This document shows positions 38,734 through 64,000 of a DNA stretch of 64,000 nucleotides, one piece after another. The notes under the pieces are model-generated. The model was not told the origin of the DNA and did no database searches. It saw only the letters and a program-made list of their open reading frames with translations. The DNA is from Macrocystis pyrifera (lineage: Eukaryota; Sar; Phaeophyceae; Laminariales; Laminariaceae), in contig JASSKH010000009.1 in assembly GCA_031763025.1 (NCBI GenBank), forward strand, positions 1,922,001 through 1,986,000, written 5' to 3'. The stretch's first letter is position 1. Each line of letters begins with the position of its first letter. Made by a program: the position numbers and the translations under genes.

Positions 38734-38966
38734 GTACCCCACAAGCATTAGACCGGCAATAGCACATCGCTATTTAGTCGTATGACGCGTTTGTCCCACG
38801 CATGAGGCGTCGAGCCTCACTACGAGGTGTGGAGTAAATCATTCACCTCATCAATTCTTTGTTGACAAGCCGCATCTTCGATCTCTATTCCCGATTTTGG
38901 GATGCTACGGTCAATATCCTTCTATCGTCGTGTGGTCTGCATCTACGATTATCCAGGGTGGGCTAA

Positions 38967-39318: not shown

Positions 39319-41139
39319 CTATCCCCAAAATACCTTTGAAATTGAACGAAATTCCGATATTCTTCGGGAGTTCCTTGAAGTAGCATGTCAGGTACACACG
39401 TGGTACGCATGCTATGGTAGTAATGCTTCGAATGAGGCCGAAATAGGCCTGCGCTTTCAGGCATTCGGAGAGAGGCACGCCGCAGGCGAAAACAAAATGA
39501 GGTAGGCAAAAAGGTGGGCTTATGCCTGACGTGCCTATTAGCCTTAAACGTGCCTATCTATCGGAGGCGTTTGCCATCAAAAAAAGCTTGAGACCTGCCT
39601 GAAACCTGTTCTGCGCCCCAAGACTAACCCCATACTAATTTCAAGTAGTTTTATGTGCATGGGCAAAACGTCTAAAAAAATGCCTGAAACTTGTTCAGCG
39701 CCCCAACGCAAATCCTAGACCAGTTTCAAGTACTTTGGTTTCAAGTGGTAAATTGCCTAAAAAAATGCTTGAAACCTGTTCAGTGCAGCAAGGAAAATTC
39801 ATATACTAAGATCAAGTAGTTTGATTTTAAGAGGTAAAATGCCTGAAATAATGCATGTAAACGTACGTAGCATGTTTGTTTTTTTGTACCGGTACGGAAC
39901 AAGCCATGGTTCATTACAGCACCTTCCGCTGACGTAGAATGGGATAACAGCAGCAGCACCTGGTGTACGTAATACCAGTACTATAATCGTTGCCTCGCCG
40001 TTCAGAGGTGTGGGAGTGGGTTTTGAGGAGCCGCATCTTCGACTCATGTTCTAGTTCGTGAAGTCGGGGCTTCCATGAATTGCCCATAATTCTGCATATA
40101 CGGCTCATCAGAGTGGGCTAGTGCTATGATACTGCCTTGAATGAGAACCCGGTAATTACCTGGGTTCAAGTATTGGGATCGTATTTGTAGTACTTGGGAG
40201 GCGTATCGTAGGTGGACGCGTTTCCAGAGTTGTGGGCTAGGTTTGGGTGGTTCTGCGCGTCTTCCGTGTTAGTTTTCTTCTCGTTTTTGGTATTCATTTT
40301 TCGATTTTCCATGCGACTTCCTCGCCCTCCCCTCGTTGCGGGTAGCATGGCGATGGCTTTCGTTGACGACTTATTCCTCCTCCTTAGGGCTAGGCCTTCG
40401 TTTCTTCCTCTTTTCTTTGATGTACGTCATTAGGACGGATCCAGTGTCCGGGCTGAATACCCATTCATAAAAAACGAAAGACATCATACTATCGTGCGTG
40501 TGCAGCAAACACTCGGCAAAGAGGACAAAACAAACGGCGAGGTTCGATTCGCACCACAATCAACTCAACAAAACCAAACGTGCACATCTTGCATGTGTGC
40601 ATGCAGGGTCGAGAAAAATCCTAAGCCCCAGTGTTTGTTCCGGCCTCAAGTCACACTTCGGCGACATCATCATCAGTCTACTTATCGGACACACAAACTA
40701 CCATGCCTGCACCCCGCACCGTCCAATGCGCTGAATGCTCGCTGCCTACTACTATTATACAATGCGCCTGCAAAGTGGCGCCGCCACAGCAAACTACCAG
40801 GTAGTCAATAATATATATGCAGGACGCGACCACTGAACTTGTTATTTTACATCTCAGTATCCCCGAAATCTTATATGTGGGCTGTGCGCTGTGGCGCTGT
40901 GTGGCTGCGACGGGCTACGGGGACCCTACAAAACATATATCCCCTGTCCCCTGATTTCGGAGTTCCAGACTAACGGCGTTATTTTTTATGCCTTAAATCC
41001 CCGTGAGCGTACCTGACGCGTGCCTGGCAAAATATAGATAGGCACGAAAACAGTAGTTCAGGCACGCCTGTTTCAGAAACAGTACAAGTAGTTCAGGCAT
41101 TTCTTCAAGCATGCCTTAAAGGCTAGGGCTTAGGCGGAA

Positions 41140-41390
41140 ATGCCGGTAATTACCTGGGTTCAGGTATTCGGATCGCGTTTCCTTGAGCGACATATCTTAG
41201 ATGGAAAACCAGGGGTTTTCCCAGCGAGGCACGAGCCTTGCTCTCAGTCTCTCATCGTGCACGAAAGGAATAAAGCTGCTCTTCTTCTATCTCAGAGCAA
41301 ACAACACACGTGAGTCCTAAGGAGTACGTGCTCAAGAGGAGAACCTAGCTAGGGATGCTCTGTGTCCCGACCTTTGAACTTAACACTTAC
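41140..41390 (+). mobile_element. Fossil LTR, family 3, copy 3
   Basis: Opposite orientation to the other two copies: CCGGTAATTACCTGGGTTCA at the start, the GGAAAACCAGGGGTTTTCC block, then CACGAAAGGAATAAAGC. A short piece of the same repeat also lies at 40120-40215. Confidence 0.5.
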
Positions 41391-41744
41391 TGCGTCGGGT
41401 ATATATAAGAAGAAGAAAAGAGAAAAGGAAACGCAGCGAAACGAGGCAGTTTTGAAACTGCACGAAATGAGCATTGACTATGTGGCCATTACTGCTGTCC
41501 GCTACTGCTGGAAGCAAAAACGCAAAGTGGGCAGCAGGACCGTAATACCTGGTAGGCCTCTGGAGGCGAATGAAAAACAAGCACACGTCGTGTCACTTAG
41601 TTAGAGCCTTTGGTCGGCCTCACTACGAGGCGTGGGGAATTCTATAACCTCTCATTTCGTTGTGTCGAATAGCCGCATCTTCGGCCTCTTTTTCCGGTCT
41701 TTTCGGATAACTCCGTTATCATCCATCGAGCGTCGTGTGCTCTT

Positions 41745-42095
41745 GTTAAGGTCTTAGTCCGTTGGGCTTCGTATTGGTGAAAGGTTAACCCATCGCCTAC
41801 CCAATCTAAGCCTTTAAACACTCTCCCCCCCAGGAACGGACCGGATATACGGGTCGACGTGCCACCAACGCGTGGTTCCAATTTTTGGGGTTCTAGAACT
41901 ATTTTCAGATTCTTGACGCGAGGAAACTCACTTTTCTTTAAAAAGCGATTTCATTGGTAGACGTGAGATTCGAACTCACGACCAACGACCTTCGACGTCC
42001 TGCCGATGATGCCGTATGTGGAGGTCTTAGTCCGTTGGGCTCGTACTGGTAAAAGGATGACCGATCGCCTACCCAATCTAAGCTTTATATCACGC
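41745..42095 (-). mobile_element. SINE family B, one full copy plus a truncated head
   Basis: The block around 41855-42095 repeats the copy at 34.2-34.5 kb, including the B-box-like GTGAGTTCGAATCTCAC and A-box-like AGCCCAACGGACTAAGAC. A second head-only copy lies at 41749-41850, so the unit occurs twice in tandem. Confidence 0.6.
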
Positions 42096-42159
42096 TGCAT
42101 TAGAACACTCTGCATATACGACTATCCAGGGTGGGCTAATGTGATAATGGAGTACCTAC

Positions 42160-42935
42160 TCTGTAGCGTTGGACTGTAGAATGGTCATGGGATAGCCGAA
42201 GTATTGAAGCCCTGTAACACCCGAAGAGTATTCAACATGATATTTTCGGACTTCAGGATGAAAGATTACTGCAGGATGAAATGCGAAAAAAATGGAAATT
42301 TCTCAAAAGATACCAAGGAAGCCACCTTTTTTTCGTTTCTGGGGTGGGTAGATATCACCACAAGGCACCACCTCACGGTTTCTTGGGGTCCTAGGACCCA
42401 GCGTCGCCGTTCACTCTCGCATACGGGTTTTCACCTATTTCGGCCGTTCCCGGTGCGGGTAAGAATTCGAGTTTTCGTTTTTGCGGTGGTGAGAGGCGAT
42501 GCGAGATCGTATGTCACCAAAAATTCGCGAGGTGATGCTTTGTGGTGACTTCTACCCACCTTAGAAATAAGAAGAAAAAAAACATGTTTCCTTGGTATCT
42601 TTTCAGCGATTTCTCTATTTTTTTACGTTTCATCCCCAAGTAATCTTTTATCCTCAAGTCCGAAAATATTTCTCGGAGCCCTGAAGTTTCCCTTTTTTTG
42701 CTGTTCAATGGTTAGGATAGCCGATAGGAGAAGAGTAGACAAGCGCCTGAGGAAAGTTCCTCGGACAAGGGTATTTACCCGTCTAGCGGGTTGATAGAAG
42801 GAGAGAACAGTGGGCTTGATGCCTTGACTCCCCCTATCGAATCACTCTCAACCGCTCCCTTCCACCTCTCATCAGGAAGAGGGCTCATAAACGACACAAG
42901 AAGTTTCCTAAACAAGAGAAGCTATTGGTATCTTC
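42160..42935 (+). mobile_element. Fossil family 2 LTR interrupted by an inverted-repeat transposon
   Basis: Starts after a GGGTGGGCTAATGTGATA junction and continues, past an insert at about 42239-42670, with the family 2 blocks TGGTTAGGATAGCCGATAGG and GGTTGATAGAAGGAGAG. The host LTR is colinear with those at 34.9 and 35.5 kb on both sides of the insert. Confidence 0.5.
42239..42670. mobile_element. Inverted-repeat DNA transposon (about 430 bp) nested in an LTR
   Basis: The left arm starts ATATTTTCGGACTTCAGGAT and the right arm, reverse complemented, reads ATATTTTCGGACTTGAGGAT. The arms match for more than 120 bp with scattered differences, including AAAAGATACCAAGGAA and GGTGGGTAGA. No coding region. 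It splits a family 2 LTR, so it is younger than that LTR. Confidence 0.65.
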
Positions 42936-42936
42936 C

Positions 42937-43046
42937 TATTACGGGGGATCATAGTAAATAGGACCAAATCTTGTTAGTAAAAATAGGTAAATATATAGTT
43001 TTTTTTTGTATACCATAGGTCCTATTAACTATGGACCCCCGTAATA
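42937..43046. mobile_element. MITE family TATTACGGGGG, copy 5
   Basis: TATTACGGGGGATCATAGTA on the left and CTATGGACCCCCGTAATA on the right. It sits at the end of the family 2 LTR fossil, interrupting the match to its relatives. Confidence 0.75.
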
Positions 43047-44284
43047 GCCAGTTCAGATAGTTCCTGCATTCCATCCCTTACCACTTTGCTGTAACTGTAG
43101 TATTTATTACGAGTTGACCCAGCTTCGACGAAAAAAAACACCTCATTATACTTTTTTATACCTTCTTCGCGGTCGGAGTCATTTGGAGTGAAGTTAAACT
43201 CAAGCTTAAAGCAGTAGTTGTAGTAGTACGGGCCCGGTCATGAGAAAGTAACTCACAAGAAGTCAGCTTGAAGAGCTAAAACAAAATAGAATGAATGCTC
43301 TCAGCCTACTGCAGTCTGGGCCTTCGCTTCAGCTTTAAGAAAGTTGACCCATTCCTGTGGCCGGCCTGGGCTGTGGGCCCAAGGTATCATTATTTTGTTG
43401 TGCACTACTACTAGGGAAAACGTTTTGTCGAGGATCAACATAATCAGAAACACAACCTAAGAAACTGTGTTTTCGCGCGCGCCCGGAATAAGAAAGTCAG
43501 CCTGAGCTCGATTTCAGGCTTTCTTGTGGGAGGGCCGGTACTGTATACCTCAACCATTTTGTCGAAGCCGGGCCTAGAATTAAACAGCCCTCGAAACTAT
43601 AACTACGTACTCGTAACGCTTTTTTTCGCACCATTTATTTCGCGCCAAAGCAAGGTCGATTTTGTCCCCGAAATAAACCAGCCAATAACGACTGACTGCA
43701 CAACATATCCTACTGCAGCGCTAAATCTAAGTAGTAGTAATAGTAGTTGTAGCAGCAGTAGTAGTAGCAGCTTGTCCCCAAAAGAGTGGTCGGGGTGCAG
43801 TTCTCAAGGGGCAAAGGAAGAGCACACACACATTAGACCGCCGATATAGGGAGAAACCACGAAACAGTTCTTTTTTCTTCCTGGCACGAGGGGGCCCCCC
43901 TCACAAGCCGGTTGTGTGTATGAGGCTTTTGTCAGTGGGTGAGCTCGCGCGAGTCCCACACTACCCGGAGGAACTGACTCTCCCTAGTGGCTGTCTACAC
44001 CGCACCTGCCCCTTTCGGGGGTGAGGTCGGGTCAACATGCCAAAGCGCCAGTGGTAACAGCAGCCTGCTCTAATGTTGCAACGGGAGTTACGGGCTAAAT
44101 TGACACACGATACGTATGGTTAACTCTTATTTTTACCAATCCGCCAGAGGATAAAAAAAAACAAGAGCCCCGCTTCGTCAATGCACTGCCGGAAACCGAT
44201 GTACTGGGTTTTGCTTGCGGCGGCAGCAACTCTTCTATCGCAAGACCAGCATAATACTGACTGCAGAGAAAGGTTGGCAAAAAC

Positions 44285-44400
44285 AGAGTTGCCACGATAT
44301 TATATTGTAGGGCGGGGCAAGGGTTGCCCCGCTGTTCCCTAGGGTTTTACCATAAAAGTAGGGCAGGGCAAGGGTTGCCCTGCTGTTCCCTAGGTGTTAC
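44285..44400. repeat. Two direct copies of a GGGCAAGGGTTGCCC hairpin
   Basis: GCAAGGGTTGCCCCGCTGTTCCCTAGG-like units occur at 44315 and 44365, each self-complementary around GGGCAA.GGTTGCCC. The phrase AACAGAGTTGCCACGATATT also occurs twice (44284, 44455). Confidence 0.55.
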
Positions 44401-45554
44401 CATATAACAAAAAAAGGTTGGACGGAGGTATGAAAATTCTCACCCGACGTCAAAAACAGAGTTGCCACGATATTATACGACAGGTATTCATTAGAACTTT
44501 TATAGCTAACTTGCTCTTCTGAGTGGTAATGGCATCTACATCTGATACGACTCCTCGTGCACCGCCGATTGTGATGGGAGATGACACGAGATGAGATGTA
44601 CCTGGTATTTTTTTTTTCGGGCGAGGCCAACTCACACCTCACAACGAGCCGGAGTGGTTGCGTTTCGCCGATATCCTGCGTAAGGATTTTCGGCCAAAGC
44701 GGTTTTCTCGACCCAAGTGTTTTCGACCAATCAGAAAACTACGTGCCACAAACCTCTTTCTCTCTGGCTGCCGCGGCAGCAGCTATTGTAATATTCTGCA
44801 ACAACACCTTGAAATACCTGGTGTACAAAAATAGATGTATGTGGTGTGACGTGGACGTGTCTTGTCGGGCCTCAAAGAATATGTTTACAACAGGTTTTGA
44901 GCCGTGAACCAGTGTGCTCGCGATGAGGTCCACCTCTCGGTGCGCTGTCTCATACCTGGTACGCGTACATGATGATATAGTAGCATCATCACCGGAATTT
45001 AGTTAAATATCTCTTCCGAGTGTTTTTTTGACATTGAAAAAAGAAAAGAAAAAAAGGACTCCTGTCGTGCACCGGATATTATACGCGATCACTGCGATGA
45101 CTGCAATCAAGCCAGAGATGACGGCACAAGGCTCACGACAGCGATGGGATTCTTAGATTACTCTCACGTCGTGGGGGATACCTGTGCGCTGTTTACTGAA
45201 GAACCAGCCCGCGCCCAGCCACTGACTAACTACAGTAGCGGGCTTGGTTTTTCTCTGTGTAACATAAAAAAATGGGAACCGAGATGAGACCCTCTACAGA
45301 CAGATAGGTTTGTTTTAACCGGTGGTAGACACAACTGTATAGGCTGGCATGAAAGCCGGCAAAGAACCACGGTTACGCTGTCCTGAAACACACAAACTCA
45401 CGTCGTACGACTACTGCATGCCACCCCCTTTTGACAAACCTACCCTAACCTACTGCCGTAGTCAACGGTCGCCAGCGTCCACGAGGTGAACGGCACATGG
45501 CAAAGGACGATACCTGGTGCTGCTTGCACGCCGCTACTACAGCATCACCTGCAG

Positions 45555-45645
45555 CAGCGGCGGCGGCGGCAGCAGCAGCAGCAGCAGCTTTACTACTACT
45601 ACCACCACCGCCGCCACTACTACTGCTACTACTACAACTGCGTGC
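45555..45645. repeat. Compound CAG/GGC/TACTACCAC trinucleotide tract
   Basis: GCAGCAGCGGCGGCGGCGGC passes into CAGCAGCAGCAGCAGC and then TACTACTACTACCACCACCG. All six frames stay open here for compositional reasons only. Confidence 0.75.
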
Positions 45646-46488
45646 TGTTGTGTCACACCTTCCTCGCTACTCCCTTTTGGCGTTTCGAAAAACTGCAGAG
45701 AACGACATTTGACCAATAAAAAAACTGCTGGCACCAAATATCGTGAACACTGCGCACCTTGCTACATGCCTACACCCCAGCTCTTCAACAAGAAAGTTAC
45801 AAGAGTATGGGTAGAGTGGATACAAAGGTATGGCGCCTGACACAATTATCCCGCCTTGTTCAACGACCCTCCGGCCGTATCGTAGATACTTGGTTGATTT
45901 ATTGATAGGATGATTATCTCGCTTACAATTAAGGCTCATAGCGTAACGCCCCAATCTAGGTTCCTGGCGCAAGGAAAAAAAAAAAAAAACGAAGAGGAAA
46001 GAACAAAGAAAAAGAAGAAGGCGGGATAGGAAACAACGAAACACGCAAAGCACCTAATATACCTGGAATTAATTAATATCGAACACCAAGAAAGCTCGGA
46101 AAGGGCGATACGTTCACGCATACCACAGGTGGAGTAGTAGCATATACCTGGTAGGCCGTAAGTACGGCCAGGCAGCACCAAACGATGCGGAGGCTCACAG
46201 CTTGCTTTAGCTTCGTCTACGTAGACAGCAGACATCCTATCCCGCATCCCCTTATCATCACGCATGTTCGAAAAGCGCCCAACTGCTCGGACGTTTAAGA
46301 GGCTAAAGAGGAGAGCAACCAACAGCAATCTAGAGAAAACATCCAACACCGTGTCAAAAACCTAAAAGCGCGCACCGAGGACGACATCGTCGAAACGCAG
46401 CTGCTCGAAAAAGCATTCGCGGTCGGTCGGTCCCCGAGCTCGGCCGAACGTAAATCAAGAAAAACAACTTCAGTGGTGCTCCATAGCG

Positions 46489-46594
<106 letters not shown>

Positions 46595-46989
46595 ACCACG
46601 CCACGCTCCCCTGCAAGGCAGCTAAGCCGTATTCCGAAAGCCACAACAACACTGGAAACCCTCAGACCGCCTTGGAGACCAACCATTGCGACGGCGGTGG
46701 TGAAAGGCGGCCAAAGGCACAACACAAAAATACACCAAAAGAATGAATGAATACATGACACACGCACAAAAAATAAAACAGGCCTCATTTCGGGATCGAC
46801 CAAGTAACCGCTGCTCACCAACGTGTACGTGTACCAACACACACCAACAGGAGGGCCGCCGGCGCTCCCCCTCGACTATCCCCAAAGAGTGTCTTCAACG
46901 CCAGCTAGAGCCAGAAACAAAAGGTAACGGGCAACTGACAAAGTTCAATAAAAAAAGCCGTGACACAACGTGCAATCACCCGATCCATA

Positions 46990-47440
46990 GGCCTTCACTT
47001 TGCTCATCTGCTCCGTTCATCCGCTCCGTCTATTGACTCCGCGCATCCACTCCGTGCATCCGCTCCTGCGCATCCGCTTCGTTCATCATGTGCTTCACTC
47101 ATTTCCCTCCGATCATCCGCTCCACGCACACGTTGCGCTCATCCGCTTCGCGCACCCGCTTCGCGCACTCGCTCCGCGCACTCGCTCCGCTCACTTGCCC
47201 CGCGTATCCGCTCCGCGCATCTGCGCCACGGATCCGCTTCGCCCATGCACTCCGCTCACCCAGCTCGCGCATCCGCTCCGCGCACCCCCGCTCTGCAAAT
47301 CCGCTCCGCTTTGGACAATTGCTCGGCGCATCTGCTCCGCTCCTCTCATCCTCTCCGTGTCACTCGCTCCGCGCAGGCGCTCTGCCACACCCGCTCGGCC
47401 CACCCGCTCCGCTCCCCTCGCGATATCCACACCTCACACC
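46990..47440. repeat. Minisatellite of short CATCCGCTCCGCGC-type units
   Basis: Roughly 12-nt periodicity built of CGCTCCGCGCAT / CACCCGCTTCGCGC. A multiple-of-three unit keeps several frames open (RSAHPLRA-type peptides), which is not evidence of coding. Confidence 0.75.
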
Positions 47441-47875
47441 CTTGTCCTCGTGCGCTCTACCCCTCGACTGCCAGCCCTGAAGCAGTCTACGCAGAAGGAC
47501 GTCCCGTCCATTTTCGACAACACAAAAATTTCTGTTGAGTGCCTCGGCAGAAGACGGACAGCGGTTCAAGTCGAGCAGGGCATCCCGCCGCTTGGCAAGC
47601 CGCAGGGCATCCCGCCGCCCACACATCCGTGTGTGCTGACTCGGTCTCAACATCGTCCCCAGGAAAATCGCGCGAGCGTGGTTTGGTTTCTTGGAGGAGC
47701 ACGGACGCTTCTAAACCCAAATTCAACAAGTAAAAACAGGGGGGGGGGGGATTAAACGAGATACGAGAAGGCAAAAAACATTTTTTTGGGACGCCTTGTG
47801 TACGAGCCTGGAAGAAAAAAAAACTCGAGGACGCGACTGTCTTCACGAAATCCTCCTCGCTCCTTCTCCCCCCCC

Positions 47876-47919
<44 letters not shown>

Positions 47920-48364
47920 TACACCTTGCTGTCGCATTTTGTCACAAAGTACTGGAAAGGCATCGCCCCTACTGCTCCGACACGGATGGCTCCGGTTGAC
48001 ACATCCTCCTCGAAAATACGACTGTATGCGTTTCTTGTGCCCCACGACGCCCCCACAACAGCACAACATCGCCATGAAGGTCAAGATCACAGCAGGCCGG
48101 CCACTCCACGCCACAACGACAATGAGAGCCAGCCCAATGCAGTGGCAGCCGGGAGAGGCGGGGGGGGGGGGGAGGGGAGGGGTTGGGGCAGGGTCCAGTA
48201 GCCCTGGACCAGCAGCCATAGACTAGCAGATGGGTTGGGTCGTCTCCTACTTCCCTTCCGCAGCACCCGCCACATCCCCAGGTGGCCGATGGGGTTAGAC
48301 TGTGTCTCTTATCCCACCCCTGCAAGCACCGCGGTACCACCCGCCCGCCCACCCACCCGCGCGC

Positions 48365-51300
48365 TCATCCCAGATAGTCGCTAATGCTCTTCGCCACCTG
48401 CATTGAATCGGGGTCGTCCGTGACTCTTGTCCACGCCGCGAAATTGGTATCTTTTGCCAGCAAACGCTCCACCTCGTTGCTCTCTAGTCTGATGTCCAGG
48501 GCGACGACAAGAGAGACAGAGACAAGTCACCGACGGAGGCCAAAACGGGGGGGTCAATCGCCAGTGCAGGAAAAGACCTTGGGGGGCATTGTTGTCCTCG
48601 GTTCGGGACGCAAGGAACACAATCGAAGAGGAGAGGGGAAGGGAGCTTGGGGGGGCATTCTCGTCCTCGGTGCAGGGCGCGAGAAGCTCAACGGGAGAGG
48701 GGAGGGGAGGGAAGGGAAGTACGGGGTGTCTAGACCTTGGGCCATCTTGGAAGAAATAGTTGAAATATGACTGACTTGAAACCACTAACCCTAGCCCTCA
48801 ACCCTAACCCTGACCGCCTTTGAAGCTAATCGGAAAGAAGGGTTAACTAGGAGTCAGTGCGGAAAATCAACCATTTTATTCGGAGCTGGGGCAACAAGCC
48901 GTGAACACTACGTACTGGAGGAAAGAGGTGGCGGTACGGGGCGGGGCGGCGCGGGGCGGGAGGGGATGGCAGTGTCGCAGTATCTGCTTTGCCACGGCAA
49001 GAACAAGGCTCTCCCGTCCGCCGCTTCGGATCGACGACTCGTACCGCCTATTAATAGTAGTACCAAAGTCTCTTACACCGTAGACTGACCACACGCCTCG
49101 AAACATAGCGATGCGGCACAAGCTCAATCACGGAAAGCCCCACTGCCATATTAACAAGGGGCAAACACAACGGCAACAAAAAACACCGCGGGACACTAAA
49201 CACACGTACGCACATAGGCCCAAAAACACATTTACAAGCCTTGAGAGCACAAAACACGTCTACATTAGTCCAGACCCAACAAACCACATTTTATGAGCTA
49301 TCAAGTCTAAAAACAAAGCCAACTAGAGCCCCCTCTAAAAAGAAACAACCCTGCAGCGAAAAACGGAACAACGTGAGCGAAACACGATCAAACGCTCCCT
49401 TGCGCCTCGGGCAAGCAAAACGCCCCCTCACATGGTTGGCCGCCTGCTCGGTGCAGGCTCCGTCAGCCACATCAGACTGGACATACGCTCCAAGGCTGGC
49501 CGTGTGAACGTCCCTACAGAGTCCGCCGGCGTGGTAGGTGACGATGTCACAGACGACGTCGGCGGCGACATGGACACCTGCGGGGGCAAACCCTCCACCC
49601 CTAAAAGCTCCGTCTGCAGGCCCCACGAGCTCGCCGTCGTCGTTTCCGCGGGGGTGGCAGCAGCGGCCGGCGCCACCGGCGGCACCACCACGTGAGCCTG
49701 CAGCGAGGCGTTCCAGTGGACGGCGGTGGACGTCGTTGTGGTGGTGCTAGCGGACGTCACGCTCGAGGTGTCGCCGCTATCCCTGCGGCTTGCCCAACTC
49801 CGCGACGGCTCCACCCCACCGCTCATCTCCCAGACATTGCCAACGCCAGCGCCACCGCCAACACCTGCTCCGCTGACTCCCACACCACCACCGCCACCAC
49901 CGTCGCCCACGCCGGCACTACCGCCACCATTTCCAGCAGCAGCAGCAACAACAGTGGCAGCAGCAGCAGTAGCAGCAGCAGTAGCAGCAGCAGTAGCAGC
50001 AGTAGCAGCAGCAGGAGCAGCAGCAGGAGGCCTGGTCGCGGCTGACTTGAAAATACGCGCGGTGGTGCTTTCTCTGGACGTTTCCCGCGAGATCGCGGAA
50101 CTGGGCGGCCCACTAGGCATACCGCCGACAAACGCCTCGCGCTTCACCTCGGGCGCGGACTTCGCCGCCCTCTCCGCCGCGTGTCGCCGCGCCTCTTGCC
50201 CCGGCGCGCGCAGACTCGCCGCTAACGCTGACTCCGAGCTGGGATCAAACGATGGCCGTCCCTGGGGCGGCGGCTGTTTCACCCCTTGCTGTTGCTGCTG
50301 CTGCTGCTGCTGCTGTTGCTCGAGGGGGGAAAGCGAGACGACAGCGGGCTGGACCGACCCTGTGATGGTTATCGAGCTGCCAAGCCCGAGTTCCCTGCTC
50401 GGGTCGAAGGACGGCCACTGCTTCAGGGACGGCCTCGAGTTTATGGTGATGCTGCCGCTGTTACCGTAGCTGCCTAGGCGGAAGTGGTTGCTACTACCGG
50501 TGCGGCTGATGCTGTGTCCGCTTGTGGACCTGGAGTGGGTGAGGGAGTTCTGCTCGGCTTCCGATATGATCGCCTCCGTCGCCCTGCATCGGAAACAAAA
50601 CCAACACGTCCATAAAACATATTTATATGTCATGGTGCGTGTACAAAACGTCCTGGTCCAGCTACTAGTCTAATGCAGGGCAACAAAAACAACAAAAATA
50701 ACTACGGTACGTGGCGTAACAAAGGCAAAACATACAACAATATTGATTGACAGGAAAAAAAGCTAAAAGCCATCCGACCGACCGACAAAACACGCTATGA
50801 CACCCATCTCTCTCACCCGGCCAAGGAGTTCCTCGCGACGAGAGACCCGCGCATAGCACTCTCCCACGAAATGCTCTTCAGCAGCTGTCGCACAAGACAA
50901 TAAAAAAGGCGGTTGCATGCACAGCGGTCACCGGAAGGTAAAACGGGGTTGAGAAAGCAGCCGCGGCTCGGTAATAAACTACGTTTCTATTCCCCTGGTG
51001 ATCCTTGAATAACGAGGAGCTATTATTAATAGTTGTTTTTGCTGTATTCGGTGTCTGGTGGCACTTGTATTCGGGCAAAAAAGGCGGCTGCAAAATAAAA
51101 CTACCAGGTACATCTATATATTAGCATTACCACACGGTACTCGAATACTCTCGGATACTGGTAACTTTACTGCGCTACCGGTAACTTTTAGGCTGAAAAC
51201 TCTTCAACTGGTCGACTTTACATCGGCGGCTGGCTTTTATATATACCTGGTATGCCTGTCTACGGAACGCTTCTCTGCCTCCCAAAAGCGTCCGGATAAG

Positions 51301-54300
51301 ATTGACGTGTGCAACACAAAGACTCTACCGGGTACACGCGGTAGTACGATGTGCCCCGTCCTAAAACTCTTGCCACCGACGGCAACATGCAAGCTCGACC
51401 CAGTGCCATTCTCGAGCTCGCCACGAGCTGACCCCTTGAAGCCTCAGTGCGACGTACGAACATGTCTTTTGCTCTCCGTTTTGTCTTGTTTCACTGCGAC
51501 CTTGAAACAAATAGTTAAAAAAAACTTGGGACAGATCATCATCGATTTCCACTTCATGATCTAACTCTTTCGGGACAGAGATTCCTGATCTGAATGGGCT
51601 AGCTCGTGCTGCCCGATGGAAGCCGTACATAACCCGCATGATCTAGGACATGTGTTCTCAGTTGGATCTGTACTATGCAGATGCAGGGAGGGAGCCGTGC
51701 ATGGCCTGGATGATCTGTAATAGGACAAGTTTCCCGGGTTGGATTTACTGTAGATCTTGTACGGTAGACAGATAGATAAGATAGATCAAACAGATCGTGA
51801 TCTGTCCGGCGTGTGTGAACTATCGTTGTTGTGGACTCACATCAGAAATGCTGGAACGCCTGATAGAGTCCTTCTTGAAGGAGCACGCGCTAAGCTGCGA
51901 CAGGTTGGACTCCTCCGACCCCTCTGTCGAAGAGCGAACCTCCATACACTGACAAATAACGTCCATTACGTCTGCCAGCACAACACGGAAAAAAAGCGAA
52001 AACAAAAACAACAACAGCACATGAGGAGGCGACGCGATAAACAGGGAGGCAGGCGGCAACCAGCGGACGCGAGGCGACTATACGCGTAAGGAGGGCGGCC
52101 ATAAACGCAAGAGGCGACTATACGCGTAAGGAGGGCGGCCATTAACGCAAGGGAGGCGACCACCAAGCTAAAGGGAGGTTTCTTCAAGCGTAGGGGGGGG
52201 CGACTATAAGCGTAAACGAGGCGGCTATTAATAGAAGCCTACCGGGGGCCACCATAAGTGTATGGGAGGCGATTATAAGCATAAGGGAAGATACAACAAG
52301 CGTTAAGGGCGGCGAGTATAAGCGTAAGGGAAGCGACAACAAGCTTAAGCGGGGCGAGTGCAAGCGCAAGGGGTAACTTGAGGTCAAGGGGGGCCACTAT
52401 AAGCTCAAGGGGGGCGACTTCAGCGCAAAAGAGGCGACTATAAGCGCAGGGGGGGGGGGCAGCTATAAGCATAAGGGTGGCCACTACAAGCGTAAGGAGG
52501 GCGGCAATACGCATACGGGAGGCGCGACTAGAAGCGTAAAAGAGGAGGCTATAAGCGTACGAGAGGCCACCATAAGCAAGGGGTGCGACTATAGGCGTAG
52601 GGGGGGCGATGTAACCGCAACGAGAGGCGAGTACAAGCGCAAGAAGGGCGACTATGAGCCTACGGGAGGCGACTATTACGGGGGCCATAGTTAATAGGAC
52701 CTACGGTACACAGAAAAACCTATATATTTCCCTATTTTTACTAACAATATTTGGTCCTATATACTATGGTCCTCCGTAATATGAGCGTCGGCGAACACCA
52801 CGGGCAACAAATAATATGTAAGTGCATATCGTAAACCAGTACACACAGACTGTGCAACTTGCGGAGACCTTTGCTATGCAAAGTAGACCGTTTTCGTTTG
52901 AGCAGACAAGGCCGGAGCAGAAGCAGCAACCGCTGCAAAAGCAAAGCAGATCCGCGAGCGTTCCAATAGACAGCAGCAGCACGGAGTGCGTACCCCCGAC
53001 CGGCTGCTGGGCCATGGGGGAGTGACATTCTCGACCACGAATGAATAGGTGAGAATGACATCACCACTACGAGCACATTTAGACGCCATCCCCAACTTTC
53101 AACTCAATCTAGTCGCGGTTTGAATATCCCCTCGTAACGTCGCGACTATCCTTTTCCGCCATCGTCGGGTGCTCTCGCGCGGACGGGCTCCGCCTCGCGT
53201 TCCGAGAGGGGGCGACGACCTTAGCCAATGTGTTCATCGAGCAACTACGCGATCGGCGACAGCCCGGGGAACCGGGCCGAGCTCACGAACTGGCCACTAA
53301 GGATGAGGTTGGACAGGGTCGTCAACCTGGCCCGGTTCGGCGGGGTGCCAGCGATCGCGTAGTGCTTGATCATGTGCTGGTTGCGGGCCGTGGCCCCCTC
53401 TCCGAGCGCTTCACGGAGAGTGGATATAAGCCATGCAAGACCCTTGCGCAGATGCAATGGCTAGGCGCGAGTATGAGGTCGCGTGAGCAGTGGATGCTGC
53501 AGTCGTACACGTGAAACATACCGGTACAGCAAACAGACAGCGTGTAATTTATAACAGAGCGGGGCAGGAGCACCAGCCACATTTCACGCTGGCCGGGTCG
53601 AACTTCTCCAATTCTCGAAAAGCTCAGGGTGTCATGGTTGTGATCCCCATTCGCAGCGCCATCATCCGATGCCCCCATGGAACACGACCAGGTTAAGGCA
53701 TGCCGAAAAGTTTCACTTCTAGCTTGCACCAACGACTAGGGAAAAAACGGCTGCGCCATAAACCCTCCTGAGACATCAGAGAGGAAAAAAATGAGGGACT
53801 AACAAGGACACTGGCAGAAACGGCCACCGTGGTTGGCGGATGATAGAGACTGGTGTCCGACTCACAGCGTAAGGAGTCGCACGACGCGGCACGGGAGCAA
53901 CACGGCCCTGCCGGTACTGCTGTGCGCTCACGCTGCTCGTAGATGGTTGGTAACACCCAAGAAATCAACCATTGCTTGGACGCTACCTTCAACATCCACA
54001 GGGCATAGTGGGTCGCACCACCATGAATGGGTTATACCGCACGGTGCTGTAGTTGCATGTGCACAGGTGTCGGCTCTCGCTCAACGTAACTTTAGGGCCA
54101 CACTGATTTTTTTTTTTTTACTATCACGGATAATCAAAAAAAGATCAGAAAAAAAACGTCGTCGTACGATACCGGTATACCTAATATGATGAACGCTTGA
54201 ATACACAGCACCTTAGGTCTCACTTCCTTCTTCTAGCCCATCTTAACGGGGAACGCTAAATTTCGTTATTTTGAAATAAAATTTGAATTTCAATGAATTT

Positions 54301-55731
54301 TAATTTGACTTCGAAAAAAAAAAAACGTGTTCGTATCCTATCGGGAAACGGCGCATTCATTGTCAAACAAAAAGGAATTCGAAACAACCTGGAATAACGC
54401 AACGCGTCACACAACGCCCAGCCGACAAACAGCAACGAGCGTAGACGAGAGCGAAGGTTTGCGTTGTCGCGTGCGCGCCGCCGCCAGCATTTTTTTTTTT
54501 TTGGTGGCGCAGAATAGGAAGCTATCACTCTCAGGGTGTCTTGGGTGGGCAGAGGGAGCCCTCAAGCGCCACGTGCGGAACAACAACGGCGATGCAGCTT
54601 TCGAGGTCTCGAGCGTATCCTCTGTTTTTTTGCTCGTTTGCTCGGTTTTCGTGATGGTTGGCCGATCGAGTAGGCCCAAAAATTGGGCTTGCGGCCGCCA
54701 TGATTTCTTCTGAGGCGACACCGCCGACGTGCGATGTGCTATGGTCGGTGGCCGTGGGCGCGGCTATTGCTCCGGTCGCCTGTCGTTGAGGTTCGCGTTT
54801 TATCGCCTCGATCATGGTCACCGAAGCGGCCAAGAATCACCCCAGACTCCACCGCGGGTGTTGACCCACCATGAACATGCTACATCAAGGCTGATCAACT
54901 CCCAAATTCGAAATTCAAATTAAAAAAATCGCACGAAAAAAGTCCCAAAAGACGTTTCACTCAAATTGATTTTTTCTAATTTGCCCCTTCGAATCCTGCC
55001 TGGTCATTCACTCTTCGGCCAATCACACGCAAATAAAACCAGAAAATAAAAATTCAAATCAAATTGAAAGAACCAAAAGTCCTCGATAAGATGGGTCCTT
55101 ACAGTAGTATCAATACAAGATAGAATGCTCTTCAGAATATGAATCGTTCTCGTAGTCGTATGCGGCCTTCAGGCGAAGACGCAAATGAAAACCCACCTCG
55201 CCCCCATGCTCTGTGTCCAATGCGCTGCGAGTACCGTACAACGAGCAAGACATCACCACCATCTCCGACCATGTTTTTTAAGCTGGTTTCTTGGAAACGG
55301 GGCAGCGCTATGAAGGGCCGAGCGAACGCGTCTATGGAAAGATCTCACCGACCTCTTTTCAAAAGACAGCATTTTCGGTGTGGAGGTTGTTTGGGAGAAA
55401 GCCCGCTCGGAACTTTGTGCCAGGGTTTGTGTAACCTTGCGCGCTACCTCGTATACGGTAGGGATTGCTTGGGGAATGGAACATCATCTCCCAACAAAAA
55501 ACACACCAACATGGGGCCTGCGGACACCATCTCCCAACAAAAGCGAACATCGGGCCTGCGAACATCTCGCAACAAAAACAAACACATCATGGGGCCTGCG
55601 ACGAGACGCACAGAATTTCACGTCAGACCTATACCCGGTATAACGTATTCAACCAAAGCGTCCCTTGTCATCCCCGCCACAGGACAAAGCATGACACTAC
55701 GACTGCTACGGTATTCGCTCAACCAAAAGCG

Positions 55732-55783
<52 letters not shown>

Positions 55784-58492
55784 AGTCCACCCACACACGA
55801 TAACCCAACTGCTGTGTCACATCAAATGCAAAAACTGAAGGCGCCCCATGCAAATCCGCCACAAAACACAACACAACACGAAAACAGCAGTTCACGACTA
55901 TATACCACACTACGGCCCGCAAATCTGCTACACAGCGCGACACAACACAAAACAACACAACACAACACAACGCTCCCGTAACCTTTAGCGCTCCAACCAA
56001 AGCGCCCCGTGCATTTCCCCCCCCACCATAACGCAATACATACTGCCGTGTCACGTTGAACGCTAAAAAAAACCTGGGGGAGCTCCCTGTGACCCGCCAC
56101 TTAACACAACACACCCGCTGCTCTGTTCAAAACTTCATGCCCAACCAAAGGCTCCCCGGGCAAACCCACACGCAGCACAGCACGAAACCACCACCTACTA
56201 GGTACCAGCGAACATGCGAGCTAACATTTCAACCGGTGCGAGGGAACATAATCAGAACCAAACACGCGGTAAACATACGGGGGACACGTGGTTTTTAGTG
56301 TCCATAGTCAGGTCTGACTATTTGCTATCATATGCCCCCCCGCCCCGTAATAACCCCCCGCACTATATTATATATATATATATATATTTATATGGGTTGG
56401 GTTGGCGTCGGTTGGCAATGACACTGTAAAACATGCCGCTCACTACGTGAAGTAGACATCCAGGGTACCGTTTTTTTTTTTTTTTTTTTTTGGCGGTCGC
56501 CCACTGCTGGTCGTCGAGTTAGATCATTTGTGCGAGGTAAAGAACCTTTACTCTGCACAAGGGAATATATCGTATCACGTAGTGTTCAAGGTAAGGCACC
56601 CAAGACGCAGTTACATAGTACTCCCGTTGCTGTCTCTGGAAGTGGCTACACCGGAAATTAAACTAACTCATTGAAGCTGTCATCATATGCAAGTCCGCCT
56701 CACAAGCGGTTCTTAGTAGGATGCAGCTCACCCTTCACGCGACTCGTCGGACGCTCACGGCGCTTCGCGCTTGGTGCAAGCAATGTCTGCCTGGTCAGTG
56801 AAAACACGACATGCCCCGTCCTAGCATTGTAGGGATACGAGGGTCTATGGTCATACGACTACGGCCATGCATGAGATCGAGTACATCCCTCCTATCGAGG
56901 ACACCCCCCCCCCCCCCTGATAACATGAAGGACACTCACCGCAAAGGTTGGGGTCCGGCTGCAATATCTCTAGCGTGTCCTTCGCCGGCTGGGTCGAAAA
57001 CACCAGCTGCGACGACATCGTCCTGCTTTTTCGCGGCTTGTGCCAGTACGCCACCGGCGCGCTCGTCGCAGAGAGGCTGCCCCTGCCGCCGCCACCGCCA
57101 CCGCCCCCACCAATGCTCATCCTGCTCCCGCCGCTCCCGCCTTCTCCCGCCGACTCCGACACCGACCTCTTGTCCATGCCGTCTGGCATAGAGTCGGGCG
57201 CTCCACCCCAGGCGGGCGTGAGAGTCAAGGCGTCCATGGACTGCGAGTGTGGAGGCTTCATGTACAGAACCGGAGCAAAGGGCGGGAGAGGGAGGGGGGG
57301 GGGGGGTGCTCCGTGACGTTAGGTACTGGCGTGGTCATCGCAACGTTAGTGAGGCTATATACAAAAGCCGCAGCAATGGACGCGAGGCGGCGGCGGCGGG
57401 GGGGGTGGGAGTGTCCCATCAAATTATGCACTGGCGTAGTCGAAGCAACGTTGGCGCGGCTACAAAGAGCTGCAGCAACGGACGATGGAGTGGGAGGGCT
57501 GTATGTGCTGCATCGCGTTACTGGCGTGCTCTCTTGTAGCAACGTGGGTGGCGCTATACAGCCGCAGCAACGAACAATGGGCGGAGGAGGGGAGCGAGAT
57601 GCTTCATCACGTTTACTGGGGTGGTGGTTAATGACGTGGTCGTAGCAACGACACTGTATCACCGGCCGTGGTGTTGGAACACACACGGACCATGGTTCAG
57701 GGGTAACAAACATGCCATGTCTAGAGGGAAACCCTCATATGTCTTGCCTCGGCGCAATTTTCTACGCCGCGACGCCGTCTCGACAAGAAATACCAGGTGA
57801 ACGATGGGAAAAGCATCCGTCCTTGTTTCGGAACTCGACACTCGACATCAAGTATGCTATACAGGAGACCGTGGTTTGACCCCTTGACTGACTGCCCCCT
57901 ACAGTAAAGCTAGTATATTAAGATCTCCAGGAGACCGCGGTTTGCCTTGATTGACCGCCCCTAGACTAAAAATAGTACATTAAGGACAACAAAGGCTTGA
58001 CGTGTCCCAAGAAGACCGGTCAGACTGCGGTTTGACCCCTTGACCGACCGCCCCCTACACTAAAACCAGTACAATAAGGCCAAAAGAGACCGCCTTGACG
58101 CGCCAAAAAGGACTGGTCTCCTACTATTCTCCTAATATTTGCGCTCTACACCCGCTTGAGTGCAACTACACCTGGCGATGAAAACCACGGGACCCAGCAC
58201 ATCCCACGACAGCCATTGTCGCGGCCGGCCTTCATACCTGTGCCCACCCCGCGGAAGGGGGCATGCCGTCAAGCGACATATTCGACAGCGCCATCGCAGC
58301 CTCCGTGCCGGGCGTGTTGTGTGCGACCGGCATGCCAGCGGCCGCGCGCACCGCCGCCGACTGCAATTCTAGGCCCGTGCCGTGCAGCTCTGGCGTCACC
58401 GGTGCAGACTGGGGGGTTTGGGGGGGGGGTTGGGAATCAGCAGCACGCAACAGCAGCTGAGAATCTCCTAGTTGGTCCAAGGTTCGCGGCAT
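48365..58492 (-). CDS. Uncharacterised 817-residue protein with low-complexity tails, ten exons
   Basis: Function unknown. Exons: 58492-58238, 57255-56940, 55331-55197, 53622-53588, 53460-53287, 52932-52869, 51971-51841, 50884-50817, 50583-49432, 48488-48365. All have GT-AG borders and every phase joins; the total is 2454 nt ending in TGA. Residues 1-190 are Pro/Ser/Gly-rich with a poly-Gly run. Residues about 175-370 look globular and helical (ALPRFQETSLKNM, FRELEKFDPASPLHLRKGLA, MIKHYAIAGTPPNRARLTTL, DVMDVICQCMEVRSS). Residues 370-776 are disordered: Ser-rich, Gln11, Ala/Thr-rich, Gly/Val-rich, with PSFDPS occurring twice. The C-terminus, RLLAKDTNFAAWTRVTDDPD, looks folded again. The KGLAWL/helical core vaguely recalls RUN-type adaptor domains, but I do not claim it. 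The first exon's ATG is the least certain point; a start further upstream is possible. Intron 3 holds an inverted-repeat transposon, and intron 6 ends close to a minisatellite and MITE. Confidence 0.8.
52040..52672. repeat. Minisatellite GGCGACTATAAGCGTAAG
   Basis: About 25 imperfect units of 20-27 bp alternating GGAGGCGACTATAAGCGTAA with variants (GGCGGCCATAAACGCAAG). It occupies intron 6 of the ten-exon gene and abuts a MITE. Confidence 0.8.
52674..52781. mobile_element. MITE family TATTACGGGGG, copy 6
   Basis: TATTACGGGGGCCATAGTTA on the left and ACTATGGTCCTCCGTAATA on the right. Inserted at the edge of the 52.0-52.67 kb minisatellite, in intron 6 of the ten-exon gene. Confidence 0.75.
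54236..55098. mobile_element. PIF/Harbinger-like non-autonomous transposon, copy c (863 bp)
   Basis: Ends GCCCATCTTAACGGGGAAC and CCTCGATAAGATGGGTCC, followed by TTA. The interior shares GTCTTGGGTGG and the block GCCTGGTCATTCACTCTTC... CCAATCACACGCAAAT with copy b. It lies inside intron 3 of the unknown ten-exon gene. Confidence 0.65.
57860..58130. repeat. Three to four copies of an approximately 70-bp repeat, GACCGCGGTTTGACCCCTTG
   Basis: Each unit runs AGACCGCGGTTTGACCCCTT, GACCGACCGCCCCCTACACT and AAAACCAGTACAATAAGG, with variation. A single relative in inverse orientation lies at 19635-19675 (GGGGTCAAACCGCGGTCCCC). It lies in intron 1 of the ten-exon gene. Confidence 0.6.
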
Positions 58493-60033
58493 ATTGTGAT
58501 ATCAGCGTTGACCATAGGACTTTGAAGGATATTATATAGGATTTAGAGTGGCGTTCCTCGCTGAGCACAAACGCCTACGTACTTATTGAAAAAAAAAGCA
58601 GCCTGAAATGATCAATTCCCAAATTAGTAACACATGTCGCGTACTATACCAGTGGGTGTCAGACGAGCCTGCTGCCGCTGCTGCTGCAGCTGCGACATCA
58701 GCGCAAGAAAAACGAGGGTTAACTATGGCTAAGCGCCCACCCGCGCAGTCGGCAGGCTATGAGCATACCCCTCTACTATTAATAGCCAAGTCTAATATTG
58801 CGGGGGAAGGTAGGAGTAGCAATCAGAACCAAGTTGGCGTGTGAACACATGGGGATCTACGTTTTTGGGTCCATCGCGAGTTCTGAACACCTACGGCCGC
58901 CCTTAATATGACAGCCTACGATTACAGTAGTGGTACCATGGTACTCAGCAGTAGACTATCACTCAATCCTCGGACCTGGTAATAATCTTAAGTACGGTAG
59001 ACAAACATTGAATATTCCAGAATCATGCTGTACTTCAGGCAAATAGTATACCAGGTACCTGGAGGTAGAATTCGTCATGCACGCTTGCGAAGCATCAGCA
59101 TTGCATACCATACCATCTACAGGGCGAATCTCCCCGTGACGCGAGGCACGCCGCCTAGAGGGAGCGCACTATTTATACCCTGCGTATGGGCTGTATCTAC
59201 CGTTACTACTGCCTGTGTTTGCGTGCATTAAACTCGACTTTTAGCCTGTCAGGCGAAATGTTTTCCACCTTAAAACTAGAGCGATGAGGCTCCATCACAT
59301 AAAATAACACAGACTCACAGCCTACAGTCTACACGTCCAGACGTCGAGCCCACCCAGCACCCAACACCTATTACCGTATGAGCCTACCCGATACCCCAAC
59401 ACACTCAATACGCAGGCTTTGCAGCAAAGTAGTTACCCCGCCCGGGTCCTGCCTCAGACAAGCCAACCGCCAAGCAGATACCGCTCTCAACGAAAATGCA
59501 AGAACCATGGGTTTCCTAATGAATATTGTGTAAACCTACAGTTAGTACCTGAAACCTTCCGCAACATTCCATATTATATTTTCGTCCAAGAGTATATACT
59601 ATTCATGCTATCGCGCCCCCAACCAAGAGCTGGTGGGTGCTTTAACACAGCTGTATTGATACCTGGTACGAGCTATCATACCAACATCACACCAGCACTC
59701 AAACCACGCGTGGCCCAGTTTCTCACCGGCATCGCGGGATCTCTATTCGTGTTGTCCTTCATGGTACCCGGGGGGTGATGGCGAAAGTGTTGCCCGTGGA
59801 TCTCGTTCACCCCGTGCATGTCGTAGTGGGGAACCTATCAAAATAGTCGCAGGCCGTTCAAATCACACAATTCATCGATGCATCCCGAGCAGCAGCATCA
59901 GCAGTATCGCATTCAGGTCGACAGTTGACAGGTTTTTTCTGCGTCAACTTCCAATGATGCTCAACTTCGGGACTCGGGAGTTTGGGGAGATCGGGTCGTT
60001 GTTGACGTTCTCAAAAGGAATGATACAGCAGTA
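58493..60033. other. Region upstream of the ten-exon gene
   Basis: Expected to hold the promoter and perhaps a further 5' exon of the minus-strand gene. No such exon or core-promoter element is recognised; there are several ACCTGGT words. Confidence 0.35.
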
Positions 60034-60652
60034 GTAGTGGCCCCTCTATAGTGCCTGTGTGTGTTCTTCACATTGTACCGTTCTTTCTACCCGTCGACAT
60101 CTGGCACGACCAGTGCCCCTGCCGATTCTTCAATCCTGGAGAAATATAGTACAAGCCCTGGTCACAAAATTACGACACAGAAATACCAGATCGCCATGCA
60201 GTAAGCAGAGTAGACAAATGCAATGCCATGTCAGGGCGTGTCTTAACTCCCTCCAAAGAGCATGGGGAACGAGCGGAACGGAACGAGGCTGCTCATGGTC
60301 GTTCGCTCCGTGCCTGTGTAAAAAAACGTGTTTGGGTCCATGCAGAATCCTGGGCCTCGCCAGCCGAATCAGTACGAACGGTATCTTTTGAAAACGTGCC
60401 ACGGCAAATTGGTGTCCACATCTATCTTCGGTGGTGTCCATCTACACCAATTAATATGCTATTTGTTCCCGTTCGATCGAGCCGTTCGGTCCTCCCAAAC
60501 AAGAAAAAGGGGCGCAACACTTCTTCGTTCTCTTCTTACTGCAGATGTACTGCTGTTTTTCTCGGGCTGGACTGAATCTATACGTTACCCACAACCAATG
60601 AGCGCCAATTCATGCGGCAAATAATATTCCATTCGGTTCGTTCAAATGCTCT

Positions 60653-60693
<41 letters not shown>

Positions 60694-61031
60694 CAAGACA
60701 CGCCCTCATCGTACTGGACACGACAGACACGACCTACAAGTACGCATTCTAAGAACGAGAGAAAAAACGAAGAACACAAAAAAAAACTTACGAATGAAAA
60801 AAAAAAAAGTATCGTGTCTCCCTGAAGGAGATGTGACAGATGTTATAAAACAAGAGAGACAACCAACACTACCACCTATGAACAGAGCAAGACTAAGAAC
60901 TAAAGGAAAGAACAGGCAAAAACCGAAGCACAAGAAAGGAATTACTTGGCACAGACGGGATTCACCAGCGTGGTATATAGAGCGCCGGTATCGTTGGCTG
61001 GCGCATACCGGCACTATAGAGGGACCACTAC
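60034..61031. mobile_element. About 1-kb DNA transposon with CCCTCTATAGTGCC termini
   Basis: The left end GTAGTGGCCCCTCTATAGTG and right end GGCACTATAGAGGGACCACT are inverted repeats of about 22 bp. The interior has a 39-G run and a Lys-rich 75-codon frame at 60842-61069 that I do not recognise. A lone terminus of the same family sits at 5131-5150. Confidence 0.55.
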
Positions 61032-63560
61032 TGAATACCGCTGTGACACATAAGAAAGGATGTTATTGATAATTACAGCAGTAGTTTAGAGCTGTGACGT
61101 ACCGGTAAGCACCGACTCTACACAGCTGAAAATTATTATGGCTCGCCAGTACCGCTACCAGATACCTGGTACCATGGTATACCGCAAGGCTTGCAAATTC
61201 AGGGGATGCATCATTATCATCCCCGTTCAAGGATAATTGTCGAATCCGTAACGAACACGAAAAGGCATCTGCTGTGTCACCTGTGCGTGCTATTAATATT
61301 AATAGTCTACAGTAGTAGCATAGTATAGAGCTAAAGCCACCAAGTAAAACTAAAAGTCCAGGGGTTTCCAATGTACACGTACGCATTTTTTACCAAGGAA
61401 CATTTATAAAAAACAAACTACCGCAAATAAAAGGCGAAACCTCTTACGGGGTTCATTAACAGCGATCACCTCGTGCCCGTGATTATTAATACCATCCCTA
61501 TATATGTGATGCGCAAAACGTCTTGTTCGATATCGACAAAACGCCTTCGATATTATATTATATTTATACCATACCGACGTACGACAAAAAAAATACTCGA
61601 CACGATTCTGATATATACCAGTACCTGGTATGAAATAACCTGGTACAGTATGAAATAAGGCCGCGCGCTAGGTAAAAATGTAAAAATCGATCTTTATTTC
61701 CACGTCTTCCCTCCCTCTACCCAGTAACTGCAACTTTCCTCGCGGAGAGCTTAAAACTACAAGTATATTGAATCGAGGCTTCAGAGCCCTCTTCAAGAGC
61801 ATGCCGATTTCGTTCAGTTTCAACAAAAATAACACGGGCATGCCAGGGGATGAAGGGGCAAACACAAAACAGAACAAGCTCGACAGGATATATCGAAAGT
61901 TCGACAGTTCGATACTTGAATACATCACTTTTGATACAATATCAGCACTACAGCAGTACATAAAATTGAGAGTGTGTAACGCGCACGTCACTGCTGTTCG
62001 GCCAAAACTGAACTCGCAAATGACGGGCCCGAGCTCACGCTTGTATAAATGTACATATATTCGACAAAAAAAAAACTAAACTAAGAGATAGAAAACTCCT
62101 CCAAAACCATTTTTGCAAGGTTTCGGTGTGTCGACGGGTGTACATAGAAATAACGATTTCATGTAACCAACACACATATATCCGTACCAGGTAGGTACTT
62201 ATGTATATGTAGCTACTAGCGTTGGTGGCTACTAGCGTTGGTGGCTTCGCTTTTCGTTCCCTCCGCACGCGATCACATAGCTCCCCCACACCCCCGCCCG
62301 CCCACCATCACCCCTCACACAACACCACAACCCACTGCGCGGCATGGAATGACACTAGCATGGCATGTACGGTATACAGTTACATACAAACCAAGCCGAA
62401 ACAAAGTCCAAGCGCAGTAAGTCTACCGTGAAACACGTGTCGTGAGGTAACACATGGGTGATAAAATAACACACACGCTGGGCCGAAATTCCGAACAGGT
62501 TCTCTCCGTAACAGGGAAGGCACACGCATCCAGAATGGTAGCTTCGGATTATCTCGTCGAGACTCGTTCGGCGTTCAAATCCTCGCCGTTGTGTCGAGAA
62601 AATCGGTTTCGAAGTTCGTCCGATTATATCACACGTGCGATAGTGTTACACGACTACTACAGTCAGTACGTGTCAACAATGAGAGGAGGGTGTTCTGGAC
62701 GTATTATATGATAGCAGGTCATTATATGATGTGGTCATCACTCTGTCTGGGGATGTATTCGGTGGAGCGTTCTTGCATCGCGCGAAAAAAAAAAATTGTT
62801 TTCGGCTGGTTCCAACTTCAAGGCTATGACAGCAGAACAGAGAGGGTGGATAAAATTGGTAAAACTTGTCATATATATGCAAGCATATCGCCTAAAACAT
62901 CGTCGTACATAACTGCCTGTTGCGCGCGCGAAACTGGTTAGATATTGCTGTGTCCACGAAAATTACGAAGCGCTATGCCGAGCTAAATGCTGTAAAAGGT
63001 GTGTTTGTTTGGCCCACTACTGTGACGTATAACATACATATATACGCGTATTTATGTGTGTATACACATATATACAGTGCATGGTCAAAGCGAACGACGT
63101 GACCAGGCGAAAAGCCTGAAAAAAAATAGTGTAAAAACCTGGTCCTCGAAATTCGAAACCAAACACGACACCACCATATCATATGCTTGTAAAATTGTAA
63201 AACAACAGCTGTGAGGTCGAGGGTTTCGTCGAATTTTATCGTTGCAAGCTGTGAGTGATACTATTAATAGTGATACTTCGATCGCTCCTGCAGTAGTACG
63301 GGCTTTTTATGGCCCTATGCCGCGTAAGCAACGCCGTGTATGAGCAAGACAAAATCTGAAGCTTGCAGAATTCCAAGGAGTGGTTGTGTCTATAAAATGT
63401 ATGTGGGAAATAAATGAAAAGAGAAATATCCGGAGGTTGCGGGTAACATGCTACGAGTGAGAAATTCCCCTCCTCCCCCCCCCTCCCAACACGGTGCTCC
63501 GTCTCGAAAGGGATGCGTGGTCAATTGTCAAATGACTAAGGCAAGCAACAAAAGAGTACG

Positions 63561-63606
<46 letters not shown>

Positions 63607-64000
63607 ATGTACCTGGTACATCGAGTATAATCTAACCTGGTACCTTAGACATACAACAGCAGGCACTGCTGCTGTACGTGGAATATATCACCAAAATGCC
63701 ACCCAGCAGCAGTGACAAAATGATGGCTTGTGATCAACACCCGGGCGGCCCAACTTTCCCCCTGTGCTGCTATTGTATACATGTAAGTACGTCTATGTTG
63801 GCTCACACCTGGTACTGCCAAACACCAGGGACTACTTTGAACGGAAATAGACAGCACGTTTAGGCATAAACATGTAGCCTAAGCGCTCCTCACATTTCGC
63901 TCCAGACTGGTACCTGGCACTTACCACTGTACCAGGTATGTGATGATATGCGGGCACAGAGACTTTCACCTAAGACCACTTGAGCCAACAAACTAAGGAA
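61032..64000. other. Unassigned right end
   Basis: AT-rich non-coding texture with many TACCTGGTA words, one poly-C run (63561-63606) and two CTATTAATAG palindromes. No supported gene. Confidence 0.4.

Follow-up and report, generated by a model that had tools for sequence, protein, structure and literature searches.

A probable minus-strand gene of five to six exons, with a putatively disordered product, in a 64-kb stretch of the Macrocystis pyrifera genome

The minus strand at 58492-48365 raises the question of whether exons that join in frame reveal a gene, and what kind of gene it would be. In the window (the whole 64-kb stretch of giant kelp, Macrocystis pyrifera, DNA analysed here), the ATG at 58492 and the TGA at 48367-48365 can indeed be joined by GT-AG exons in a single open frame, as had been proposed. 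The original prediction counted ten exons, including a 35-nt microexon, and 817 codons, and took the closing of all phases as strong evidence for a real gene. The same start and stop were joined by six exons (676 codons plus stop), also without frame conflict (Table 1); this six-exon model was built by eye from the sequence, aided by a splice-site scan, and tested afterwards. The ten exons had been described without coordinates, and the comparison made here is with their ends and totals, not with the exact exons.

The best explanation, taken as a whole (strand, core exons, ends and disordered product), is probably a minus-strand protein gene of about five or six exons at 58492-48365, encoding a loosely structured product. 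The strand, the core exons and the absence of matches in the libraries searched were supported in the analysis. The presence of a real gene was supported by codon usage, exon chaining and strand contrast, not by the phase closure from which it had been argued.

Table 1. Coordinates of the six-exon model and of the features lying within it. The p values are from the codon-usage test: margin of the claimed frame over the other two frames, and bits per codon.
Feature	Coordinates	Strand	Length (nt)	Frame margin (p)	Bits per codon (p)	Remarks
E1	58238..58492	-	255	0.33	0.093	ATG at 58492; coding codon usage only in the 3' part (58402-58247)
E2	56940..57240	-	301	0.012	0.005	Phase 1 end at a GTGAGT donor; both ends recovered by chaining
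E3	51841..51971	-	131	0.035	0.085	RRSSIS cluster
E4	50817..50884	-	68	0.072	0.045	Both ends recovered by chaining
E5	49432..50583	-	1152	<0.001 (first 100 codons)	<0.001 (first 100 codons)	Poly-Gln, poly-Ala and Gly-rich runs; two PSFDPS motifs
E6	48365..48488	-	124 (including TGA)	0.020	0.108	Possible last exon
Intron 2	51972..56939	-	4968			Most extra exons of a ten-exon reading would fall here
Degenerate 21-bp tandem repeat array	52073..52676	.				Within intron 2
PSFDPS copy 1	50397..50414	-				Residues 309-314 of the six-exon model
PSFDPS copy 2	50238..50255	-				Residues 362-367 of the six-exon model
Apparent mobile-element protein fragment, open	53248..53460	-				Inside intron 2; exon mimic at 53408-53287
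Imperfect foldback	53188..53418	.				Arms 53244-53288/53319-53363 and 53188-53220/53386-53418; spans the mobile-element fragment

Phase closure was assessed with a dynamic program that maximises the stop-free length of chains with exactly ten GT-AG exons, applied to eight other stretch-strands (some of them containing retrotransposon frames) and to six dinucleotide shuffles. With no limit on splice scores, chains of 1,029-1,163 codons were obtained in all 6 shuffles and of 1,099-2,049 codons in all 8 stretch-strands; with mild limits, all 14 controls gave at least 829 codons; and with the strictest limits, 817 codons were reached in 6 of the 8 stretches and 3 of the 6 shuffles. Chains of at least 817 codons were thus obtained in every one of the 14 controls without splice-score limits or with mild ones, and in 9 of the 14 under the strictest limits, and the closing of the phases loses its value as strong evidence. 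The ten-exon model needs about 420 nt (about 140 codons) beyond the six-exon model, mostly in intron 2 on the assumption that it includes the six exons. Four-exon inserts that close the frame in this intron and have one 35-nt member numbered 6,481,608 (420 nt) and 6,365,856 (423 nt), about 12.8 million, when the sites were unscored, and 11,536 and 11,197, respectively, with mild site limits. Because millions of chains close, the in-frame joining of hand-picked GT-AG exons proves little in an intron-rich genome.

For the microexon, 42 possible 35-nt GT-AG segments were present between 58237 and 48489, none of which combined a good acceptor with a good donor (generic weights gave -0.5 and -1.1 bits for the best balanced pair); comparably low scores occur at some of the splice sites chosen for chaperonin exons, so that weak sites speak against the microexon but are not proof of its absence. 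A gene of ten exons and 817 codons with a folded domain of a new family at residues 175-370 is very improbable. It shares with the six-exon model a gene that is probably real, and matched neighbouring exons of chaperonin genes in the kelp are often separated by some 1 kb, so that more than six exons would be possible; the chaining program described below gave 10 exons in 48200-59400 (exon costs 8 and 10) and 13-14 in 46900-59400 (costs 4-8), but with end coordinates other than those of the ten-exon model. Beyond the closure expected by chance and the lack of a 35-nt exon with good sites at both ends, it is opposed by the codon usage of the intron-2 candidates tested, which supported a mobile-element fragment only, and by the absence of any Pfam match in 50600-57300, searched in three frames. 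Both the count of ten exons and the microexon would stem from GT-AG pairs being freely selectable within an intron of 5 kb that contains mobile-element debris. One further exon, 56790-56732, was rejected: both of its splice ends score high, but following E2 its only open phase is the wrong one, and its codon score is -2.7.

A combination of strand contrast with a codon table trained on genes of the same genome discriminates better. The synonymous codon table was made from kelp exons matching PF00118 (chaperonin, TCP1) and PF00069 (kinase), with 30 loci per family and matches with stops removed (50 exons, 3,981 codons); the null consisted of 3,000 stop-free segments of similar length from both strands of window positions 1-48000, minus two retrotransposon stretches. 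Some earlier coding scores had been trained on the six-exon model and were circular; this table and a chaperonin-only table exclude the model. The frame margin reached p<0.05 in 4 of the 6 exons (for E5, only the first 100 codons were scored), as is characteristic of a minus-strand coding gene. Bits per codon alone reached p<0.05 in E2, E4 and the start of E5 only, E1, E3 and E6 failing. GC at third positions was 0.66-0.82 in all six exons, and the top coding segment of the 64-kb window was 50594-50133, the start of which adjoins the E5 acceptor at 50583. The codon score also flagged segments elsewhere in the window resembling two known genes. In E1 as a whole, the claimed frame was beaten by another frame, and its 3' part scored 13.3 bits, lower than the antisense segment 58242-58400 (14.4 bits).

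The absence of a functional gene, with a GC-rich, repeat-rich coding mimic or a decaying gene in its place, would accord with the later part of E5, without frame signal (in codons 101-383, the claimed frame was best in none of three parts and lowest in two, chaperonin-only table), with the antisense frames, which almost mirror the codon score (38.4 vs. 40.5 for E5 and 32.1 vs. 29.6 for E2), and with the lack of a paralogue and of a homologue in the libraries searched. It is nevertheless unlikely, given the frame-specific codon usage over separate exons and the strand contrast. Since codon usage hardly separates these antisense frames from the sense frames, it is the splice chain that decides the strand. 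Exons were chained by a program combining generic splice weights with the same chaperonin/kinase codon table; its splice weights are those of the scan used for picking the exons, and its agreement with the six-exon model is therefore not fully independent. In 46900-59400, where the chain continues beyond the gene, the chain scores at an exon cost of 6 were 214.6 for the minus strand, 92.1 for the plus strand and 96.5 and 79.7 for the reversed controls, and at a cost of 8 they were 188.6 for the minus and 78.7 for the plus strand. Five other, partly overlapping 12.5-kb stretches gave 25.5-82.1 (plus), 41.9-146.1 (minus) and 10.2-108.3 (reversed) at a cost of 6; the maxima of all three classes came from 38501-51000, which includes E4-E6 and where the reversed control reached 108.3. 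The fixed six-exon chain scored 100.8 at a cost of 8, only moderately above the best plus-strand chain.

Eight of the ten internal splice ends of the six-exon model (58238, 57240, 56940, 51841, 50884, 50817, 50583 and 49432) were recovered by chaining at exon costs of 4, 6 and 8, among them the E1 donor. The chains departed from the model in that E5, recovered at both ends, was broken up in its CAG repeats, 3' exons were added, a mobile-element exon was included and the acceptor 51971 was never used; the splitting of E5 and the extra 3' exons are regarded as overfitting. The acceptor of E3 is uncertain, being 51971 by eye and 51923 or 51921 by the chaining program. Both gene ends are tentative, because E1 is supported in its 3' part only and the chain scores with and without E6 are nearly equal: at a cost of 8, the fixed chain scored 100.8 with E6 and 103.7 if ending at the TGA at 49430-49428, into which the frame of E5 runs. 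E6 was never selected by the chaining program, and at an exon cost of 15 E1 was dropped and the chain began at an ATG at 57261. The start and the stop of the six-exon model are thus only candidates. The predicted core of the gene would consist of E2, E4 and E5 (57240-49432), probably together with E3 and an upstream exon with its 3' end at 58238, and the 3' end would be either the last exon at 48488-48365 or the stop at 49430-49428. Its product would have about 640-680 residues, or fewer if the start lies inside E2.

Within intron 2, the most coding-like sequence is 53408-53287, part of a stretch (53460-53248) that looks like what is left of a mobile-element protein. In genome searches with this DNA, 17 other loci matched over at most 87 of the 281 query bases, at 74-78% identity, and a longer segment of it matched its own opposite strand. 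The 71-residue translation matched 146 other places at E values up to 1, many of them in open frames of 400-780 residues; 21 matches had E <0.001, with residue identities of 41-47%. In 11 copies of the element, the longest frame at the corresponding position encoded the same peptide in six, and another frame was longer in five; the one copy searched against Pfam contained a CCCH zinc finger. The intron-2 fragment thus shares its peptide with a repeated kelp mobile element (11 copies, L010-L020), of which the window holds just a short piece, distinct from the host gene. This remnant, rather than a new domain, may lie behind the apparent folded middle of the ten-exon product.

The fragment could also be a real exon of the same gene (53408-53287, between E2 and a shifted E3), although such an exonization appears improbable. 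The chaining program used it, with a gain of about 10 bits (179.1, vs. 169.1 when the stretch was barred; cost 8), and its 71-codon frame is open and strongly biased in codon choice (0.52 bits per codon). This bias is accounted for by an origin in an element protein, as relatives carry the same peptide in long open frames, and the splice sites of the fragment score poorly (-1.3 and -1.1), a level that some genuine kelp sites may share. Use of the exon would make the gene a minor example of exonization in the brown algae, and an element-protein exon in frame inside a disordered host protein might conceivably, with similarly low probability, provide a new folded segment.

For the preferred gene of five or six exons, no Pfam, NCBIfam or PDB entry matched the product. 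Six minus-strand read-through translations of 48300-57300 gave one Pfam match, at an E value of only 0.42, and a hidden domain in the middle of the gene was rejected on this result. A viral relative was likewise rejected, as one stretch fitted a pattern in the search of viral contigs and none was confirmed. In the kelp's own genome (537,376,219 bases, 223 contigs), seven of eight matches were the gene itself and the other had an E value of 0.17, so that no paralogue was found; among the matches listed, the DNA of E5 occurred elsewhere in its triplet-repeat parts only. The flanks (59000-63990 and 43500-48400) gave one Pfam match, far below its cut-off, and no Rfam family or tRNA was detected in the window. 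These searches agree with the earlier view that the protein belongs to no recognisable family, within the libraries covered (Pfam, NCBIfam, PDB, viral contigs and own genome). PMC6374913 describes sets of “orphan” (taxonomically restricted) genes in brown algae, and a gene without known relatives would, in the light of these sets, be of a known kind; the kelp gene resembles them in having no library match and no paralogue but, the comparison being with these libraries, it is only a candidate for this class.

The low complexity attributed to the product was confirmed, with 244 of the 676 residues of the six-exon model in low-entropy 12-mers. The most abundant residues were Ser (14.9%), Ala (13.2%) and Gly (10.4%), and Ser, Pro, Gly, Ala and Thr together made up 54%. 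Such a Ser/Ala/Gly/Pro/Thr-rich protein, with its Gln, Ala and Gly runs, is probably intrinsically disordered. The charge-hydropathy index placed the whole product (+0.127) and 3 of its 5 parts on the folded side. This result, perhaps caused by the Ala runs, is an argument against simple disorder. The folded middle (residues 175-370) was not supported; the intron-2 frames gave no domain match in Pfam. Both copies of the duplicated PSFDPS motif are present as described, but the repeat is marginal: an exact non-simple 6-mer repeat was found in 229 of 5,000 protein shuffles. A significant internal protein repeat was rejected, the best ungapped self match being equalled in 19 of 60 shuffles.

The product contains basic-Ser sites (KKDSIRRSSIS and RRDSGDTS), which are of the kinase-site type, and, as a raw count, 12 R-x-x-S/T sites. 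Disordered Ser-rich scaffold proteins that are kinase substrates exist as a general kind. The kelp product is like them in its richness in Ser, Pro, Gly, Ala and Thr, in its RRSSIS-type sites and in the lack of a domain match; the likeness shown does not extend to the sequence of any named member, and the function is putative. As a tentative guess from these motifs, it might be a flexible regulatory or scaffold protein or an adaptor, switched by basophilic kinases at KKDSIRRSSIS-type sites, with the two PSFDPS motifs as docking points.

Other features were observed in the window. Exon-like segments at 985-7375 (minus strand) have a translation that we take to be UDP-glucose dehydrogenase, and those at 9043-14395 (plus strand) presumably encode a nucleoside diphosphate kinase that carries a leader of mitochondrial type. 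Long frames at 22132-24840 (minus) and 31023-34060 (plus) form two related sets and have the appearance of non-LTR retrotransposon reverse transcriptases; one retrotransposon frame of the window had no match among phage-collection proteins. The frame at 37935-37591 (minus) resembles the terminal RNase H part of a polyprotein of the LTR retrotransposon type. A short run of telomere-like CCCTAA-type units is located at 48788-48815, in intron 5 of the six-exon model, and runs of C or G of up to 106 bases, four of the five pure, occur at 46489-46594, 47868-47919, 55732-55783, 60654-60692 and 63561-63606.
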